Virus record (IMG/VR): IMGVR_UViG_3300036785_000871
Span: 1 to 23,250 of that record
Length of the DNA stretch: 23,250 nucleotides
Strand: one strand, 5' to 3'
Source: a virus
The position numbers and the translations under genes are program-made. Below, in pieces: positions 12,162 to 23,250 of this stretch; position 1 is the first letter of the stretch, and each line of letters begins with the position of its first letter. The notes beneath the pieces were generated by a model. It was given only the letters and a program-made list of their open reading frames with translations, had not been told where the DNA came from and did no database searches.

Positions 12162-13151
12162 TTATTCTGCCGCAGCATCCGGCTCGAATACACTGACGAA
12201 TTCTGGCCGAGCATGTCGTTGGAAAACCTCGCCATAAGGTCCGGCCGATGCGGTTCGCACGAGGTTATAGAACTCGTCAGGCTTGACTGAATGCTCTCCA
12301 ACCGGCGCATTAAAATGGGTTGCGATGCTATCCGACAACGTTCGCAACTCGCCACGCACCCCGAACAAGACATGCTCAGTAGAATTTCGGAAATATGAAC
12401 CAAGACCCCACCGCGGCTTGATCCAGGTCAGAAGCGTCTTATAGGCGAATCCCCAAGCCGCCATAAGCTCGCCGGCGCGCAGGATAAAATTGTTCGTCGT
12501 CCAAAGATAGAGGTGAGAATTTTCCTCTGCCCAGCGGGCGACGTTGAACTCAAGCAACTCTTGCTGCGTCATCGTCGCGTAGATCGGAGCGGCACGTCCT
12601 GCAATAGACAGGGGACCATAATCCCAGGGCGGGTCCACGATCAGCGCGCGGAATTTACCCTCAATGGGCTGCAGGCCACGGATACGCTTTGCGTCCTGTT
12701 CTCGCTGTTCTGCCCGTTCCAATTTGGCAACACCGTCCAAAGCGGCGAATTCTTTTTTTATCGCTTTCGCGATCTTGGCTTCTTGCACTTCTGGAGCCAA
12801 TGCCTCCAGTGCCTGCCAGCGCGCCGACTCCGTCTTGGTGACGCCCAGGTCGGCCAGGGTGGGTCCGAGCGGAGTAGCACCGTGCAACTCCGCTTTTTGA
12901 TCGCCACGACCAGGATGCCGCTCGCCGCGTTCTTTCATCTCGCGCAGTATCTCACCGGCGCGGATCTCGGCCCGCATCCGGATATCCGTCGCGACCCCGA
13001 TCAATTCCCGGTCTTTAGCTTGTCGAGCATAGGCCTGCATTGCGACTGCCTTATCACGGATGTCCTTGACTTCATCTACCCTCTTAGCTTCCACCAAAGC
13101 CTGCCGGGCATTCTCGTAGCGAACCAGCCCTGTCGTCGCTGTGCGTGCCAA
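12162..13151 (-). CDS. MT-A70 family N6-adenine methyltransferase
   Basis: This 329-aa protein methylates adenine in nucleic acid using S-adenosylmethionine. The catalytic DPPW is at 173-176 ([11 protein letters not shown]). Other typical MT-A70 pieces follow: [12 protein letters not shown] near 215, [19 protein letters not shown] near 229-247, [18 protein letters not shown] near 250-268, and [13 protein letters not shown] near 294-306. The N-terminal 165 residues are helical and charged, with a [20 protein letters not shown] segment resembling a helix-turn-helix, as in many phage members. The start is TTG at 13151, with AGGAG upstream and only 2 bases from the RHH stop. It may protect phage DNA from host restriction, control gene expression, or pair with the nuclease-like gene after it. 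Confidence 0.92.
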
Positions 13152-15442: not shown

Positions 15443-16975
15443 ATGGCCAAAGACCCCAACGACGACATCCCATTCGACTTCGTCCCCGATGCGGAAAAGG
15501 TCGACGGGAGCAACTACGATCCGACCAATCCCGAGCACGTCAAGATCGTGCATGGCGATACCAGCGATCCCAACCACTGGTCAAATCAGCCGTGGGACCC
15601 GAACGAGCCCTCGTTCTTCGAGATGCTGGCCGGGCCTGACGATCATGAGGAGATCGCCGAGATCAACGCCAACCGGGCCAGGATGAACCTCCCGCCGTTG
15701 ACCGATCACCCGATGTGGATCGCCAAGCACGGCATCTATACGCCGCCGCCGCCCGGTGCCACCATTCATCCCTTTCCACGCCAGGCCAAAAGGCCGCCGA
15801 TCGACCTGGGGGTTATGGATGTTGGTCTTGATGATGAGCCGATCCCGCCTCGCGGGTGGCTGTTGGGCAACTTGTTCTGCCGGGGGTTTATTAGTTCGCT
15901 GCTGGGCGATGGGGCGACCGGGAAGACAGCGGTGCGCATCGCCTGCGCGGTTGCCATGGCGGCGGATCGTGGCGATATCGTCGGCGAGAAGGTCTTCACT
16001 CGCTGCCGGGTGCTTTATCTGTCGTTTGAGGACGGCATCGACGAGCTGCGCCGCCGCATCCACGCGGCGATGAAATATCACCGGGTAACCAAGAAGGACG
16101 TCGAGGGGTATCTGTTCCGTGCGGCGATCAGCAGACACGACCTTAAGCTGGCAACGCAGAAGCGTAATGGCGAGGTCGAGGTCGGTGACCTGGTGCGCAT
16201 CATAGAGGAAAATCTCGAAAGTACCGGCGCTGATGTTGTGATCTTCGATCCGTTGGTAAAAACGCACAGCGTCAACGAGAACGATAACACCGCCATGGAC
16301 AAGGTGGCCGACATCATGTCCAGCATGGCGCTCAGGCATGAGATCTCTGTGGATACCCCACAGCATACCCGCAAGGGCGCCGGCGAGCCAGGCGACGCCG
16401 ATATCGGCCGCGGCGCCTCGGCAACCAAGGATGCCGGACGCCTGGTCTACACGCTCACGCGGATGAATGAAGAGACGGCTGACAAATACAGTGTCCCGCG
16501 GGATCAGCGTCGGGCGTATATTCGGCACGATTCAGCCAAAGTAAATATCGCGCCGCCGGCCGCCAACACGAAGTGGTTCCGTTTGGTAGATGTCGCTATA
16601 GCGAACGCCTCGCCGCAATATCCGAACGGCGATCACGTGCAGACTGTCGAGGTCTGGAAGGGTAAAGACCCATTGGCCGGGAAAATATTTGAGCTTAACG
16701 CCTTGCTTAATAAAATAGATGCCGGGTACACCGATAAATATGGCGTGCGTTATTATACAGATCACAAACGAGCCAGAGATCGTGCGGTGTGGCCTGTGGT
16801 TCAAGAATGCTTCCCACAAATGACCGAAGGCCAATGCCGCGATTTAATACAAGAATGGCTGGGGAAAAATATGCTGCAGAACAAAAGACATCAATACAAT
16901 GGTGATGATGAGTTCGGCCTGCGAGTAAATAATGCTAATAGGCCAGGGCTAAAAGGTAACGGAGGAGAGATATGA
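15443..16975 (+). CDS. RepA-like AAA ATPase / replicative helicase
   Basis: A 510-aa protein of the RecA-like, RepA/KaiC-type ATPase group that unwinds DNA at replication forks. After a disordered, acidic N-terminus (1-110) comes a Walker A GDGATGKT (155-162) preceded by GFISSLL. A LYLSFEDGIDELRRRI segment is near 192-207, a Walker B-like DVVIFDPLVKTHSV near 266-279, and QHTRKGAGEPGDADIGRGAS near 309-328, where RepA-like helicases carry their conserved HTRK segment. The last 70 residues look like a winged helix (FPQMTEGQCRDLIQEWLG). AAAGGAG precedes the ATG at 15443. The 3' third is AT-richer than the rest. It probably works with the DnaG primase encoded leftward. Confidence 0.88.
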   Translation: MAKDPNDDIPFDFVPDAEKVDGSNYDPTNPEHVKIVHGDTSDPNHWSNQPWDPNEPSFFEMLAGPDDHEEIAEINANRARMNLPPLTDHPMWIAKHGIYTPPPPGATIHPFPRQAKRPPIDLGVMDVGLDDEPIPPRGWLLGNLFCRGFISSLLGDGATGKTAVRIACAVAMAADRGDIVGEKVFTRCRVLYLSFEDGIDELRRRIHAAMKYHRVTKKDVEGYLFRAAISRHDLKLATQKRNGEVEVGDLVRIIEENLESTGADVVIFDPLVKTHSVNENDNTAMDKVADIMSSMALRHEISVDTPQHTRKGAGEPGDADIGRGASATKDAGRLVYTLTRMNEETADKYSVPRDQRRAYIRHDSAKVNIAPPAANTKWFRLVDVAIANASPQYPNGDHVQTVEVWKGKDPLAGKIFELNALLNKIDAGYTDKYGVRYYTDHKRARDRAVWPVVQECFPQMTEGQCRDLIQEWLGKNMLQNKRHQYNGDDEFGLRVNNANRPGLKGNGGEI

Positions 16976-18209: not shown

Positions 18210-18231
18210 TTCGTGAGTGCTGAAATTAACC

Positions 18232-18261
18232 TTGACAACCCAGGTTTAGCGGGCGTAAAGC
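18232..18261 (+). promoter_or_regulatory. putative promoter of the nusG-like unit
   Basis: TTGACA (18232-18237), in the CTTGAC context typical of alphaproteobacterial sigma-70 promoters, is followed after 18 bases by TAAAGC (18256-18261). The GTG-start gene begins 40 bases further on. The -35 is perfect; the -10 is weak. Confidence 0.5.
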
Positions 18262-18300
18262 GCGAAATACCATGGACGGGCCGCTGGCAGGGGGAATGCG

Positions 18301-18453
18301 GTGGCCATCTTCGAGCGCCCCTTGCCGAGCGTCCACGGGCGAGCGTTGGGAGAAGCGGTGGACTTGCTTTTGTTCACGAAAGGGGCGGTCAGCAAGGGGT
18401 TCTCGCCGGCTTCGGCCGGGCCTGGCCTCCCGGTTTCTGCGCGAAATGCCTGA
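18301..18453 (+). CDS. possible 50-aa GTG-start gene before the NusG-like gene
   Basis: GTG at 18301 has AGGGGG 7-8 bases before it and starts a sensible frame (VAIFERPLPSVHGRALGEAV, then DLLLFTKGAVSKGF) ending ARNA. The TGA (18451-18453) lies inside the start of the NusG-like gene, an 8-base overlap typical of coupled genes. The other open frame across this region has poor codon character. No family known. If real, it is co-translated with the NusG paralog. Confidence 0.45.
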   Translation: MAIFERPLPSVHGRALGEAVDLLLFTKGAVSKGFSPASAGPGLPVSARNA

Positions 18454-18955
18454 TGCGTGGTACGTCGCGCGTATCAAGACCACCGTAAGTTGGGACACGG
18501 TAATATCCAATTTATGGAGGCAGGGATTTAGCAGCTATCTGCCGATCATAAGCTCAGAGAGATATTTTGCTGGTAAAAAGACGATTATTGAGCAGCCGTT
18601 ATTTCCAACATATATTTTCGTGGCGCTCGATGTCGATATTATGCGCTGGCGTGCCGTTAATTCAACCGTTGGAATACTGCATTTGCTGCCGGCTAACCGT
18701 GAGCAGCCGCTGTCGGTGCCGACCGCGTTTGTCGAGGAGCTGAAAACCCGCAAGACGGCCGAAAAGATGGTCGAGACGGCGCGCAGCTTCGTGGAGCACG
18801 AGCTTGTGCGGTTCATCAGCGGGCCGTTCCTAGACCCGGCCCATAATGCCGCGCGCGTCCTCACTTCCGGGGCTAATTCGACGCGGGTGGTCATGGCTGC
18901 GCTGGGGCGCGAGGTCGTCGTGTCGGTGTCCAACGGAAGTCTCATCTCGGGATAA
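18446..18955 (+). CDS. phage NusG/RfaH-like transcription elongation factor
   Basis: A 169-aa NusG-superfamily protein that binds elongating RNA polymerase. The NGN domain spans about 1-105: WYVARIKTTVSWDTVISNLW, then SYLPIISSERYFAGKKT, EQPLFPTYIFVALD and STVGILHLL. PLFP-x-Y-x-FV is closer to RfaH (PLFPNYLFV) than to the PGYVLV-type motif of NusG. Residues about 118-166 (HELVRFISGPFLDPA to SNGSLIS) fit a KOW domain beginning V-R-x-x-x-GPF. I start at ATG 18446; a longer frame from 18272 looks non-coding upstream. NusG paralogs are uncommon in phages. It sits just before a promoter, structured leader and terminator ahead of the late genes, so it is most likely a late antiterminator. Confidence 0.85.
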   Translation: MPDAWYVARIKTTVSWDTVISNLWRQGFSSYLPIISSERYFAGKKTIIEQPLFPTYIFVALDVDIMRWRAVNSTVGILHLLPANREQPLSVPTAFVEELKTRKTAEKMVETARSFVEHELVRFISGPFLDPAHNAARVLTSGANSTRVVMAALGREVVVSVSNGSLISG

Positions 18956-18982
18956 ATCATGATTTGTTCTGGAAAATTAATC

Positions 18983-19011
18983 TTGACGGCGCGGAATTGC
19001 TGGGATATTCG
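18983..19011 (+). promoter_or_regulatory. putative late promoter
   Basis: TTGACG (18983-18988), in a CTTGACG context, is followed after exactly 17 bases by TATTCG (19006-19011). This would place the start of RNA near 19018. It begins 27 bases after the NusG-like gene's stop and points into the structured leader, the place a phage late promoter would be. Confidence 0.6.
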
Positions 19012-19017
19012 GCAAAG

Positions 19018-19314
19018 TGCGGAACCCGAGTCCGCGGTAGAAAACTTGCTCGGGCGGAACTGTTTGCTGGGAGCGTAGAAACCAGCCGGTCCAGCCACCG
19101 ATCATGCAACGGCGATCCCCTCCAGGCCTTCGGCGAGGGAAATGACCGAAGTGGAGCGTGCTTACGCGTAGGACCCGGCGAGAGCCGGCCGAGTACCGGG
19201 GTTAGAAGCCGATCACCCAAAAATTCCCCCGCCTCGCGAGAGGCCACAGGGGACCGGGCGAGAGGGAAAAACACCGGGAGAATTGTAACAGAGGTCTGTA
19301 CACGTTACGCATAA
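19018..19314 (+). ncRNA. structured leader RNA, possibly an antitermination element
   Basis: About 300 bases between the promoter and terminator with dense complementary segments. They are: CCCGAG (19025-19030) with CTCGGG (19049-19054); GCTGG (19066-19070) with CCAGC (19082-19086); CCCTC (19118-19122) with GAGGG (19135-19139); GCGT with ACGC (19156-19167); CCGGC-GAGA-GCCGG (19175-19188); CCCC plus GCCTC-GCGA-GAGGC plus GGGG (19227-19252); and GTAAC with GTTAC (19285-19308). GAGA and GCGA are GNRA tetraloops. The sequence GTAGAAA occurs at 19037-19043 and 19075-19081. It matches no RNA family I can name (not RNase P, tmRNA or 6S). It may act as a put-like or ops-like recruitment element, or be a stable small RNA. 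Confidence 0.55.
19034..19040 (+). promoter_or_regulatory. GCGGTAG, ops-like motif near RNA start
   Basis: Seven bases identical to the core of the RfaH recruitment element ops (GGCGGTAG...), located about 16-22 bases into the predicted leader. RfaH reads ops in the non-template strand of paused polymerase. Here the NusG/RfaH-like gene ends just upstream. The match is short and could be chance. Confidence 0.3.
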
Positions 19315-19338
19315 CCCAAGGGAAACCTTGGATTTTTT
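19315..19338 (+). terminator. intrinsic terminator before the late genes
   Basis: CCAAGG (19316-19321), loop GAAA (19322-19325), CCTTGG (19326-19331), then A and six T (19333-19338). This is a textbook intrinsic terminator with a GNRA loop. It lies between the leader and the first late gene at 19404, so without antitermination, late genes would be shut off after a roughly 320-base RNA. Confidence 0.85.
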
Positions 19339-19403
19339 CTATGTGTCGAGCGGGGAATCTTAGGTCCGCCCGATGCGGGAGCTACGGCAAAAAGAGGAGG
19401 GGG

Positions 19404-19655
19404 ATGAGCGAAGAGCGGCCTGTCGAACCAACACCCGAAGCGCCACCTGGCGAGACGCCGCCTGAGGTGCCGCCGGCTGGCGAGCCTCGACCGGAGCCTG
19501 AGCCGGCACCACCTCAATCAGGGTACTACGGGGCGGTCTTTAGCTCCACAGCCCGAACGAAAGCGAGCTGTTGGGGCTATCGGTTTAGCCTGGAAGGTGT
19601 ATTGCCGCAGCTTGCCGGCCGTACTTCCCTTGATGAGGAGGCCGATCGGTTATAA
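19404..19655 (+). CDS. Pro/Glu-rich small protein, first late gene
   Basis: An 83-aa protein. The ATG at 19404 has AAGAGGAGGGGG just before it, much better than an ATG at 19341. Residues 1-40 are a proline- and glutamate-rich low-complexity stretch (EERPVEPTPEAPPGETPPE). The rest (YYGAVFSSTARTKASCWGYR, then FSLEGVLPQL) looks globular. No family recognised. It is the first gene past the terminator; head or scaffold-related roles are guesses from position only. Confidence 0.6.
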   Translation: MSEERPVEPTPEAPPGETPPEVPPAGEPRPEPEPAPPQSGYYGAVFSSTARTKASCWGYRFSLEGVLPQLAGRTSLDEEADRL

Positions 19656-19670
19656 CCGCTATTGTCCGGA

Positions 19671-19904
19671 ATGAACTCGGTTCTGCGCCTGGATGAGGCC
19701 GATCGTCAGCTCGTGCTGATCGCCCTTGCCCACTTGTCGATCGAGAGACCTGGGTGGGACAATGCGCTGAACCGAATTGCTGTCGAGATCGACCAGGCAT
19801 CGGAAGGGAGAGCGGTCTTGTACGATAAATTTCGGGCCCTCGCTGCTGTCGCGGTTGTGCATCGTGCCATTGTCGATACAGATCAGGTAGCCGGCTTGAG
19901 GTGA
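19671..19904 (+). CDS. small phage protein, unknown function
   Basis: A 77-aa protein starting at ATG 19671 (MNSVLRLDEADRQLVLIALA). A TTG at 19662 would add three residues. It is alpha-helical (HLSIERPGWDNALNRIAVEI, then LYDKFRALAAVAVVHRA). Similar short proteins (LSIERPGWD-type) are familiar upstream of terminase genes in alphaproteobacterial phages, without known function. It ends shortly before the small terminase gene. Confidence 0.65.
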   Translation: MNSVLRLDEADRQLVLIALAHLSIERPGWDNALNRIAVEIDQASEGRAVLYDKFRALAAVAVVHRAIVDTDQVAGLR

Positions 19905-19920
19905 TTCCAAGGAGTTGGCT

Positions 19921-20409
19921 GTGCCAGTACCTAACGGCTTAACTCAATTCACTCTGGACGAGATCGAAACGGCCCTTCGCAAGACCGGCGGACTGCAATC
20001 CAGAGCTGCCACATTGCTTACGCAGACGTCCAAGGATGGCCGCCATATCACGCGCCAGGGGATTGCGAGGCGCCTGGGGCGTAGCGCCCGCCTGAGAACC
20101 ACCCTCGAAGACATCAACGAGGGGCTGAAGGATATGGCCGAAGATCAGCTGTTGAAAAACATCAAGCGCGGTCGCGAGCGATCGGTCATGTGGTATCTCG
20201 CCACCAAGGCGCGAGACCGCGGCTACGGGTCGGGCGGGAGTGGCGTCGACCTCGATGGGAATTTCGTGGCCGGTGCCTCCGTGCATATCTACATGCCAGA
20301 CAATGGCCGGGATCCACTGATCGTCAACGGCGAGGCCTTGCGTAAGCCGAATGGACGCGGGAACGGTCTTATCACCCACAACGGCGAAGACGCCGAGGGC
20401 GACCGCTAG
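19921..20409 (+). CDS. terS: terminase small subunit
   Basis: About 163 aa. The GTG at 19921 has CAAGGAG 8 bases upstream; a TTG at 19915 is less likely. The N-terminal part (FTLDEIETALRKTGGLQSRA, ITRQGIARRLGRSARL) is a helix-turn-helix that would read the packaging site, followed by a helical oligomerisation segment (LEDINEGLKDMAEDQL, then RSVMWYLATKARDRGYG) and a Gly-rich, beta-containing tail. The helix pattern and the place just before the large subunit fit TerS. It overlaps the large subunit gene by 59 bases. Confidence 0.85.
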   Translation: MPVPNGLTQFTLDEIETALRKTGGLQSRAATLLTQTSKDGRHITRQGIARRLGRSARLRTTLEDINEGLKDMAEDQLLKNIKRGRERSVMWYLATKARDRGYGSGGSGVDLDGNFVAGASVHIYMPDNGRDPLIVNGEALRKPNGRGNGLITHNGEDAEGDR

Positions 20410-21868
20410 CCCCACCCATTCCTTTGCCCCGCAGGAAGGGCCACAAACACAGTTCGCCGCGTCACCGGCCGACATCGTCATCTTTGGCGGCGCGGCTGGT
20501 GGCGGGAAAACTCATGGTTTGCTCCTTGAGCCACTTCGGCACATCACCAAAGTAACCGGGTTCAATGCAGTCGTCTTTCGTCGCACGACGCCGCAGATCA
20601 TCAATGCCGGCGGGCTCTGGGACGAGAGCAAGAAGATTTATCCCTTCACTGGCGCAGTCGCGCATCATGGGCTGCACCAGTACACCTGGCCCAATGGCAA
20701 CACACTGCGTTTCGCGCATATGCAGCACGAAGACACGGTGTACGACTGGCACGGTGCGCAGATCGCGCTGCTGTGCTTCGACGAGCTCACCGGCGGCCGC
20801 GAGGGTGACGATCACGGCTTCTCGTTTTTTCAGTTCTGGTATCTGCTTAGTCGCAATCGCAGCACTTGCGGCGTGCGCCCCTATGTGCGCGCCACCTGCA
20901 ATCCCAATGCAGATAGCTGGGTCGCCGATTTCATTGCATGGTGGATCGACCAGGATACCGGATTTCCAATCCTCGAGCGCGCCGGGAAGCTGCGGTATGT
21001 CGTTCGTGGCCCGGCCGACAAGCTAATCTGGTCGGACGATCCCGAGGAGCTGAGGGGATATCTGCCGAGCACTGCCGATCTGCCTCCTGGTGTCGAGCCA
21101 CCCGGACCCAAGTCGGTGACGTTCATCCCCGCGAATATTTATCAGAACCCGGCGTTGCTGCGGATAAATCCCGAATACCTCGCCAGCTTGCAGATGCTGC
21201 CCGAGGTGCAGCGCGCCAGGCTGCTGCTCGGCAACTGGAAGATACGGCCGGCGGCCGGCCTCTATTTCCGCCGCGAGTGGTGTGAGATGATAGACTTCGA
21301 GGATCTCCCGGTCGATCTTCTGGTCTGTCGATATTGGGATCTCGCTGGAACGGAAAAAACCGAGACCAATGACCCGGACTGGTCAGTGGGGGTGAAGCTC
21401 GGCCAGGACGTCGATGGTCATCTTTATGTGGTGCATGTGGTGCGACTGCGCGGCGGTCCTTATGAAGTGGAAAATGCACTCATCAATACCGCCAGCATCG
21501 ACAGTTGGAAGGTGCCGCTCGGCTTCGGGCTCGACCCGGGGCAGGCCGGCAAGTGGCAGGCCGCCTATCTGGTTAGTAAGCTGATCGGGTACAATGCGCT
21601 GCCGGCGCCGGAGACTGGCGACAAGGCCACACGATTCGGGCCGTTTTCGTCGCAATGCAGGGCGGGCAACGTGCGGATCGTTCGCGGCGACTGGAACGAG
21701 GCGTTCTTTCGAATGCTAGAGGGGTTCCCCGATCTGGCTCACGACGACGACGTCGACGCCTGCAGCGGCGCGCTCGAGCTGCTCCTGGCGCATCTGCAGC
21801 AGCCGATGATGATCACCGACGAGACCATCAGGCGAGCCAAGATGATGCCGCGCCGCCGCCATGCCTGA
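20351..21868 (+). CDS. terL: terminase large subunit
   Basis: The 505-aa packaging motor and nuclease. N-terminal ATPase: Walker A GGAAGGGKT (46-54), preceded by DIVIF; Walker B LLCFDE (D144, E145). C-terminal RNase H-like nuclease: RYWDLAG (acidic residue near 330), GLDPGQAGKWQAAY near 390, and HDDDVDACSGALE near 460-475, supplying the metal-binding acids. It uses ATP to drive DNA into procapsids and cuts it. ATG 20351 is the only good in-frame start near; it overlaps TerS by 59 bases and has a weak Shine-Dalgarno sequence. The packaging strategy cannot be told from this sequence alone. Confidence 0.96.
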   Translation: MDAGTVLSPTTAKTPRATASPTHSFAPQEGPQTQFAASPADIVIFGGAAGGGKTHGLLLEPLRHITKVTGFNAVVFRRTTPQIINAGGLWDESKKIYPFTGAVAHHGLHQYTWPNGNTLRFAHMQHEDTVYDWHGAQIALLCFDELTGGREGDDHGFSFFQFWYLLSRNRSTCGVRPYVRATCNPNADSWVADFIAWWIDQDTGFPILERAGKLRYVVRGPADKLIWSDDPEELRGYLPSTADLPPGVEPPGPKSVTFIPANIYQNPALLRINPEYLASLQMLPEVQRARLLLGNWKIRPAAGLYFRREWCEMIDFEDLPVDLLVCRYWDLAGTEKTETNDPDWSVGVKLGQDVDGHLYVVHVVRLRGGPYEVENALINTASIDSWKVPLGFGLDPGQAGKWQAAYLVSKLIGYNALPAPETGDKATRFGPFSSQCRAGNVRIVRGDWNEAFFRMLEGFPDLAHDDDVDACSGALELLLAHLQQPMMITDETIRRAKMMPRRRHA

Positions 21869-22373: not shown

Positions 22374-23250
22374 ATGGCTTTAACCGCGGTTCGCCCCGAC
22401 AAGAAACCCCCGCGTCGCCGCCGCAGCCCGGTTGCCTGGGTTACCGATACGCTGCTTGCGCGAGCCCGCGCCTATCGCCGACCGGGCGCCGCCTCTGTAG
22501 ATCGAGACTGGCTCGAGCGAGCGTTTAAGGCCGCAGAGCCACCGCCGGGGGTGGTGCCGGCCGGCCGCAAGCTTATCGCTCAGGACGAGGCGATCGGCGA
22601 TGCGTTCGGCTGGGCCACGGGGTTTGGCGGCATCATTTCGAGTTCTTACGCCGAGGGGCTGATTTGGCCCGGCTATACCGAGCTCTCCCTCCTCGCGCAG
22701 CGCGCCGAGAACCGTGTCATCTCGGAAGAAATCGCCGCCGAGATGACCCGCGAGTGGATCACGCTCAAGTCTGCGTCGAACCAGGATAAGACCGAGAAGA
22801 TCAAGCAGATCAACGAGGGGATGACCGAGATCAAGGCTCAGGCCGTTTTGAAGAAAGGTGTGGAGCACGACGGTCTCTACGGCAGCGCTAAGATTTATCT
22901 CGATTGCTGTGATCCAGACGACAGTGAGGAGTTGAAACAATCAATAGGCGATGGCCACGGCGCGCTGTCGAAGTTGAAGGTCAACACCGAGCAGCCGCTG
23001 AAAGCGGTTCGCACTGTAGAGCCAGTGTGGGTCTATCCAACGAACTACAACAGCGTCAATCCGTTGCGCGCCGATTGGTACCGGCCGGAGACTTGGTTCG
23101 TCATGGGCCGCGAGGTGCATCGCACGCGCCTGTTGACGCTGGTCGGCCGGGAAGTGCCGGACATCCTGAAACCCGCTTATTCGTTCGGCGGTCTAAGTAT
23201 GACGCAGATGGCCAAGCCCTACGTCGACAACTGGCTGCGCACCCGCCAGT
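22374..23250 (+). CDS. phage portal protein, DUF1073-type, partial
   Basis: The 3' end lies beyond the window; 292 codons are visible. The ATG immediately follows the upstream TAG. Pieces seen: WPGYTELSLLAQRAENRVIS; EEIAAEMTREWITLKS; DKTEKIKQINEGMTEIKAQA; GLYGSAKIYLDC; PVWVYPTNYN and PLRADWYRPETWFVMGREVH; then REVPDILKPAYSFGGLSMTQ, with QMAKPYVDNWLRTRQ at the end. These match the DUF1073 portal family (head-to-tail connector, DNA passage and packaging motor docking), from memory of that family. The N-terminus (1-45) is basic and Pro/Arg-rich. It follows the two small AT-rich genes after terL. Confidence 0.9.
   Translation, partial: MALTAVRPDKKPPRRRRSPVAWVTDTLLARARAYRRPGAASVDRDWLERAFKAAEPPPGVVPAGRKLIAQDEAIGDAFGWATGFGGIISSSYAEGLIWPGYTELSLLAQRAENRVISEEIAAEMTREWITLKSASNQDKTEKIKQINEGMTEIKAQAVLKKGVEHDGLYGSAKIYLDCCDPDDSEELKQSIGDGHGALSKLKVNTEQPLKAVRTVEPVWVYPTNYNSVNPLRADWYRPETWFVMGREVHRTRLLTLVGREVPDILKPAYSFGGLSMTQMAKPYVDNWLRTRQ

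Follow-up and report, generated by a model that had tools for sequence, protein, structure and literature searches.

Gene order at the right end of the virus record

The window considered here, meaning the whole stretch of DNA that was analyzed, is a virus record of 23,250 bases (IMGVR_UViG_3300036785_000871, positions 1 to 23,250). All genes in its right part lie on the + strand, and they run from an AAA replication-type gene through a NusG-like gene, a gap of 448 nt, and two small open reading frames (ORFs) to the genes for a probable terminase small subunit (terS), the terminase large subunit (terL), and the portal protein:

15443-16975, + strand, AAA replication-type protein
18446-18955, + strand, NusG/RfaH paralog of 169 amino acids with an NGN plus a KOW domain (PF02357, phrog_6386, RfaH by phmmer, AlphaFold2 model, Foldseek)
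19404-19655, + strand, small ORF with an AGGAGG-like ribosome site and no known domain
19662-19904, + strand, small ORF with no known domain
19915-20409, + strand, probable terS, with weak helix-turn-helix matches
20351-21868, + strand, terL (phrog_979, 1.4e-144; PF03237; PF17289)
22374-23249, + strand, portal protein (phrog_146, 1.1e-34), continuing past the window end

The layout is therefore that of an RfaH/NusG paralog, a 448-nt gap, an intrinsic terminator, and then terL and portal. An earlier note on this DNA had described the late genes terS, terL, and portal as following the terminator. Profile matches uphold this for terL and portal, and terS is assigned by position only. Because the two small ORFs precede terS, the late genes do not begin immediately after the terminator. 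An MT-A70-type methyltransferase gene is encoded on the opposite (-) strand at 12162-13151.

The gap itself appears to be noncoding because its ORFs show a flat GC content across codon positions, whereas the recognizable genes dip at position 2. No tRNA gene was found in the window gap, whereas one is present in the corresponding region of TM3, phiLM21, L023, and L132.

A NusG/RfaH paralog with altered ops-contacting residues

The product of 18446-18955 carries a complete NGN domain (PF02357, E 1.9e-13; score 51.2 bits, cut-off 22.2) and falls in phrog_6386, annotated as "transcription antiterminator" (1e-11). Its nearest relative of solved structure is Escherichia coli RfaH (phmmer, 4.6e-12). 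These matches confirm the NusG/RfaH-like gene that the earlier note had recognized at this place. An AlphaFold2 model (pLDDT 84) contains an NGN domain and a beta-type KOW domain with beta strands at 120-168, and a Foldseek search with this model returns RfaH (E 2.4e-9) and NusG. No separate Pfam match to KOW was obtained for the protein; its C-terminal KOW domain is recognized from a GPF-type KOW stretch together with the predicted beta strands. A beta KOW predicted by AlphaFold2 is also compatible with fold-switching of the RfaH type.

Alignment to RfaH shows that K10 is kept, H20 is replaced by N, and R73 is replaced by V; these are the three positions that we take to contact ops in RfaH. 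A partial ops-like 7-mer, AGCGTGC, was spotted by eye near 19156. With two of the three residues changed and a convincing ops site absent, the protein was rejected as an RfaH proper.

The nearest plasmid relatives of the paralog are NusG-family proteins of Roseivivax, Marinovum, Mesorhizobium, and Agrobacterium that are ∼30% identical to it, and the gene was therefore likely captured from an alphaproteobacterial host. No close relative of the protein was found by peptide pattern among viral and genome contigs, and the replication protein of the window, used as a query, gave no matches.

Promoter, leader, and terminator behind the paralog gene

Several noncoding features surround the gene:

18223-18236, + strand, 14-mer AAATTAAYCTTGAC, copy 1 (A/T-rich tract plus a -35-like CTTGAC), 210 nt upstream of the nusG-like gene
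18974-18987, + strand, 14-mer AAATTAAYCTTGAC, copy 2, an exact match just 3' of the gene
18983-19011, + strand, putative late promoter TTGACG-N17-TATTCG, with a weak -10
19018-19315, + strand, putative noncoding leader, opening with a small hairpin, UGCGGA-ACCCGAG-UCCGCG
19316-19338, + strand, intrinsic terminator CCAAGG-GAAA-CCTTGG-A-TTTTTT, with T6 at 19333-19338

The terminator is the firmest of these. A strict scan for a hairpin plus T6 on both strands of the window matches only 19316-19338, and none of 2000 gap shuffles, but three of 60 whole-window shuffles, contain an equally good one; a looser definition is satisfied in 22% of leader shuffles. The terminator thus stands well beyond chance, which confirms the one pointed out in the earlier note. 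One could instead propose that the noncoding gap is a packaging (cos/pac) site beside terS, a place where such sites are often found, and that the terminator-like hairpin is incidental. We give this proposal very little credence because the hairpin is directional, with its T6 on the late-gene strand and a frequency far beyond chance, and because terminators occupy the matching place in the relatives described below.

The promoter is a plausible but weak candidate. The TTGACG-N17-TATTCG pair that had been pointed out is present in the sequence, but its -10 agrees with the consensus at just three of six positions and the pair is missing from the list produced by a standard promoter scan. It can alternatively be read by eye as TTGACG-N15-TGG-GATATT, with an extended -10, TGGGATATT, at 19001-19009. 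The -35 of the candidate lies in copy 2 of AAATTAAYCTTGAC, which occurs exactly twice in the window, once on each side of the nusG-like gene. No 13/14 word in common appeared in 60 shuffle pairs used as a control. Its confinement to these two places, one on either side of the gene, speaks for a role of both copies, and copy 1 is a possible promoter of the nusG-like gene.

The putative leader is less distinctive. The minimum free energy of 19018-19345 has a z-score of -1.37, and six 100-nt subwindows range from -0.7 to +1.0. Because this fold is no better than that of shuffled sequences, the proposal of a structured leader is unsupported. No Rfam family matches the window, covariance models of the phiLM21-type and Bradyrhizobium-type elements introduced below have no match in it, and blastn against phages and plasmids returns no relatives of the gap. 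On the + strand of 19018-19338, there is no UNCG hairpin of at least 4 bp. A UUCG hairpin at 18406-18419, upstream of the gene, was considered as a LoaP-type hairpin and rejected since it occurs at chance frequency in shuffles. The leader upstream of the nusG-like gene likewise folds like shuffled sequence (z 0.23).

NusG-like genes at the same position in other phages

Upstream of terS/terL, a gene with the annotation of a NusG-like antiterminator is present in Rhizobium phages RHph_TM3_3_3 and RHph_N28_2 and in Sinorhizobium phage phiLM21, where it lies between the replication genes and terS/terL. In Bradyrhizobium phage ppBjS10J-1, a NusG-like gene annotated as hypothetical is followed by terS- and terL-like genes. 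Another locus, L014, encodes a TerL 54% identical to that of the window and has a NusG-like gene ∼1 kb upstream of terL. Six loci retrieved by NusG similarity alone (L079-L084) all carry terminase/terL genes downstream on the same strand. One study reports that every phiLM21-like Sinorhizobium meliloti prophage it examined carries a NusG-like gene, which it places where the early region ends (PMC12429752), and a NusG-like gene has been noted in Helicobacter prophages also (PMC11321410).

Not all near relatives have a NusG gene at this position: L006, which has the closest TerL (64%), lacks one in the 2.7 kb upstream. PF02357 is matched in only three of 50 records with the terL family of the window, a count to be read with the knowledge that many of these records are fragments and that the model misses divergent members such as that of phiLM21. 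The spacing between nusG and terS is tight in L081 and in L084, where it is 28 nt, and so not every phage NusG paralog can use a leader of the kind considered here.

Several of these phages have a tRNA gene on the late-gene strand in the interval from the NusG-like gene to the terminase (L002:1347-1422, L076:9410-9486, L132:4752-4823, and L023:3113-3187). The phiLM21 record annotates its own tRNA copy on the opposite strand.

A leader element with two covarying hairpins in phiLM21-type phages

Twenty-five viral contigs with phiLM21-type NusG genes and the two Rhizobium phages named above provided a sample of 27 loci. A conserved element was found behind the gene:

L113-L137, L002:681-822, L003:684-823, and L013:390-528, phiLM21-type element containing a pair of covarying hairpins, located at the nusG-like stop codon or shortly beyond it

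The element begins at the stop of the nusG-like gene or 16 nt beyond it. Just upstream, within the 3' end of the gene, a promoter-like pair, CTTGC-N17-TAnnnT, is conserved; its counterpart in the Rhizobium phages is CTTGAAA-N17-TAATAT. Both hairpins stay paired through compensatory changes in their stems, as in TTGC/GCAA, CTTCC/GGAAG, and CGCC/GGCG, and in GTGCGGAA/TTCCGCGC, TGCCGAA/TTCGGCG, and GATTGGTG/CGCCAATC. These pairings reach a covariation score of 0.466 in a MAFFT alignment (A9). Shuffled alignments score 0.217, with none of 500 reaching the observed value, and sliding the pairing yields no more than 0.339.

Intrinsic terminators follow the element in 19 of the 27 loci, where 3.2 would be expected, and have two forms with swapped arms; 20 of the 25 phiLM21-type loci have terL downstream in the same orientation. 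These counts overstate the independence of the loci because many of the contigs are near-duplicates. Outside its training set, a covariance model detects the element in L013 (36 bits, E 7.7e-7), directly 3' of a phiLM21-type NusG gene and with new stem sequences. The TerL of L013 is 52% identical to that of the window. The element has no match in Rfam.

A second element in Bradyrhizobium-type phages

Alignment of ppBjS10J-1 with four relatives revealed a single conserved noncoding block 3' of the gene, with the rest of the gap unconserved. A pattern scan for this block identified 23 viral contigs, which together with ppBjS10J-1 make 24 loci:

L078:6744-6884 and L090-L112, Bradyrhizobium-type element of ∼60 nt, after a phage NusG-like gene

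The consensus of the element is GCAAATCAGT..CGGCCGGT..TTTCACCCGCCGGGNGGCTTGTGTCC. In 20 of the 24 loci, a nusG-like gene ends 47-315 nt upstream on the same strand. Three others (L091, L096, and L111) lie on contigs that begin within ∼300 nt of the element, and at L097 a paralog was not detectable. A terminator lies within 150 nt of the element in 15 of the 24 loci, against 2.9 expected. A GGCCGGU/ACCCGCC hairpin can be drawn in the element and varies too little to be tested by covariation, so that the element could act as a DNA or an RNA signal. The phiLM21-type and Bradyrhizobium-type elements are two unrelated families.

In the three phages tested, the Bradyrhizobium-type element itself has no Rfam match. 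The part of L108 that follows the element and contains the terminator (L108:7723-7806, - strand) matches the suhB/MmgR small-RNA family with 44.3 bits against a cut-off of 41, and the leader may therefore be an independent small RNA. This small-RNA-like terminated transcript has a parallel in phage lambda, whose 6S RNA is the pR' leader cut short by termination. Several Bradyrhizobium-type phages share a UUUCCUCCCUAGACU-like stretch.

The location of these elements also bears on where the paralog might load. It could do so ahead of its own gene or inside it, perhaps at the AAATTAAYCTTGAC regions or at a signal in the leader at 18240-18445, and then antiterminate a transcript of its own gene and the late genes, as operon-encoded loaP, taA, and upxY do; the gap would then not be the loading site. 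The identical 14-mer on both sides of the gene, the tight NusG-terS spacing of L084 and L081, and the precedent of NusG paralogs that act on their own operons (PMC7819879) fit this reading. It nevertheless seems to us distinctly improbable because the conserved block lies 3' of the gene in both lineages with enough members, although the upstream stretch was compared less closely, and because the window leader before the gene offers neither an unusual fold nor a UUCG hairpin above chance level.

A proposed late-gene switch

The reading that we prefer is that the product of 18446-18955 is a specialized NusG paralog of the RfaH/LoaP class that would act as a phage late-gene antiterminator. A constitutive promoter just 3' of its gene would start the leader transcript, and early in infection this transcript would stop at 19316-19338. 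Once accumulated, the paralog would bind RNA polymerase through its NGN domain while the leader is transcribed, recruited by a signal in the leader, and would remain bound. Polymerase carrying the paralog could then pass this and further terminators and transcribe terS, terL, portal, and the remaining genes. The paralog gene, the terminator, the late genes, and the recurrence of their order in other phages are observed, as are conserved leader elements and terminators in the relatives; promoter activity, recruitment at the leader, and readthrough are each a proposed step. Taken as a whole, LoaP/RfaH-like processive antitermination probably replaces Q at the late genes.

The earlier note had envisaged a Q-like switch operated by the paralog. 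This is still the best available reading and the relatives agree with it, but the window leader has neither relatives nor excess structure. Because the leader is without relatives in the collections searched, we infer the switch in the window phage, and the Q-like reading has strong indirect support from related phages more than from the window. In the phiLM21-type lineage, a promoter, a conserved leader element, and a terminator stand behind a phage NusG paralog and before the late genes; the Bradyrhizobium-type lineage has the element and the terminator. The search suggested earlier for the same order of gene, leader, and terminator in related phages thus succeeded in two lineages, though without a homolog of the window leader. 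This lambda-like layout in the relatives, together with the LoaP precedent, leads us to hold the paralog to be a late antiterminator, and the window would be a further, divergent case with paralog, terminator, and late genes in place.

Several observations run against a switch. In the window, the leader has no homolog and no structure beyond that of shuffles, the elements of the relatives are absent, and the -10 is poor. Among the relatives, about one-third have no obvious terminator after the element, and some phages with a NusG paralog, such as L084, have too short a gap before terS for such a leader. RfaH itself overcomes intrinsic terminators with low efficiency (PMC7819879).

In a rival arrangement, the terminator would merely end a transcript of the early/nusG region, or a small RNA, the late genes would use a separate promoter after 19338, and the paralog would have another target or counter Rho in the late operon. 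Two small ORFs and ∼570 nt separate the terminator from terS, RfaH acts mostly against Rho and pausing, and the suhB/MmgR resemblance of the L108 transcript suggests that the leader may be a small RNA. Yet a scan for a consensus promoter on the + strand found none after 19338 in the stretch scanned, and a conserved promoter, leader element, and terminator directly behind the nusG-like gene in the lineages of the relatives are hard to explain as punctuation. On balance, we consider a separate late promoter unlikely.

A broader proposal is that several rhizobial and related phage lineages captured a NusG/RfaH paralog and, independently of one another, combined it with a terminator and a leader element peculiar to the lineage. 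The result would be a NusG-type analogue of lambda Q, with at least two undescribed element families and a third private to the window. Our confidence in this broader proposal is evenly divided.

Relation to known systems

Outside the lambda and T-even models, the means of late-gene activation is, to our knowledge, established for only a minority of phages. If our reading is true, a NusG paralog plus a leader element in the place of Q would add another class to the known late switches of phages and would link the RfaH/LoaP family to phages. It would also provide small natural systems, each made of a gene, a leader of ∼100 nt, and a terminator, for comparing recruitment by leader signals across unrelated elements. 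Both element families could be tested directly in rhizobia.

The claim that an RfaH-like protein in the place of Q would be a new arrangement was too strong, because a NusG-like antiterminator is already annotated there in phiLM21, and in Rhizobium phages, and is carried by all phiLM21-like S. meliloti prophages of the one study. Novelty appears to lie in the conserved leader elements and in the switch that they imply. A search of open-access literature, in which absence is not proof, found no leader element or late switch described for phage NusG-like antiterminators, and the available portions of the phiLM21 source gave no description of its leader or switch. The "NusG-like transcription anti-terminator" of phiLM21 belongs to the same gene class as the window paralog and has the same place before terS/terL, but it is of another NusG lineage (phrog_25909) and is followed by a conserved leader element that is absent from the window.

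In lambdoid phages, the antiterminator gene Q is followed by pR', a short leader (6S RNA), the terminator tR', and the late genes. The systems proposed here follow the same sequence of parts, from an antiterminator gene through a promoter, a short leader, and an intrinsic terminator to the late genes. Unlike in lambda, a NusG paralog replaces Q, and in the phiLM21 type the leader starts with an RNA of two covarying hairpins rather than a DNA QBE. RfaH is the closest solved relative of the window paralog, which retains K10, but the paralog differs from the RfaH/ops system in its H20 and R73 substitutions, in lacking a convincing ops site, and in its predicted beta-barrel KOW domain.

LoaP, a NusG paralog of Bacillus, is recruited by an RNA hairpin in the leader and allows transcription past an intrinsic terminator there (PMC12691694). 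The LoaP/dfn system thus resembles the present proposal in combining a specialized NusG paralog with a leader hairpin and an intrinsic terminator before a long operon, and in processive readthrough (PMC12691694). Unlike LoaP, the systems described here would operate a late-gene switch in alphaproteobacterial phages, their leader elements are unrelated in sequence, the UNCG hairpin is not conserved, and they are known from sequence alone.

The put RNA of phage HK022 is a stem-loop leader at the start of a phage transcript, with terminators downstream, and acts without a protein. A stem-loop leader before terminators is common to HK022 and the phages considered here, in which a NusG paralog is encoded just upstream.
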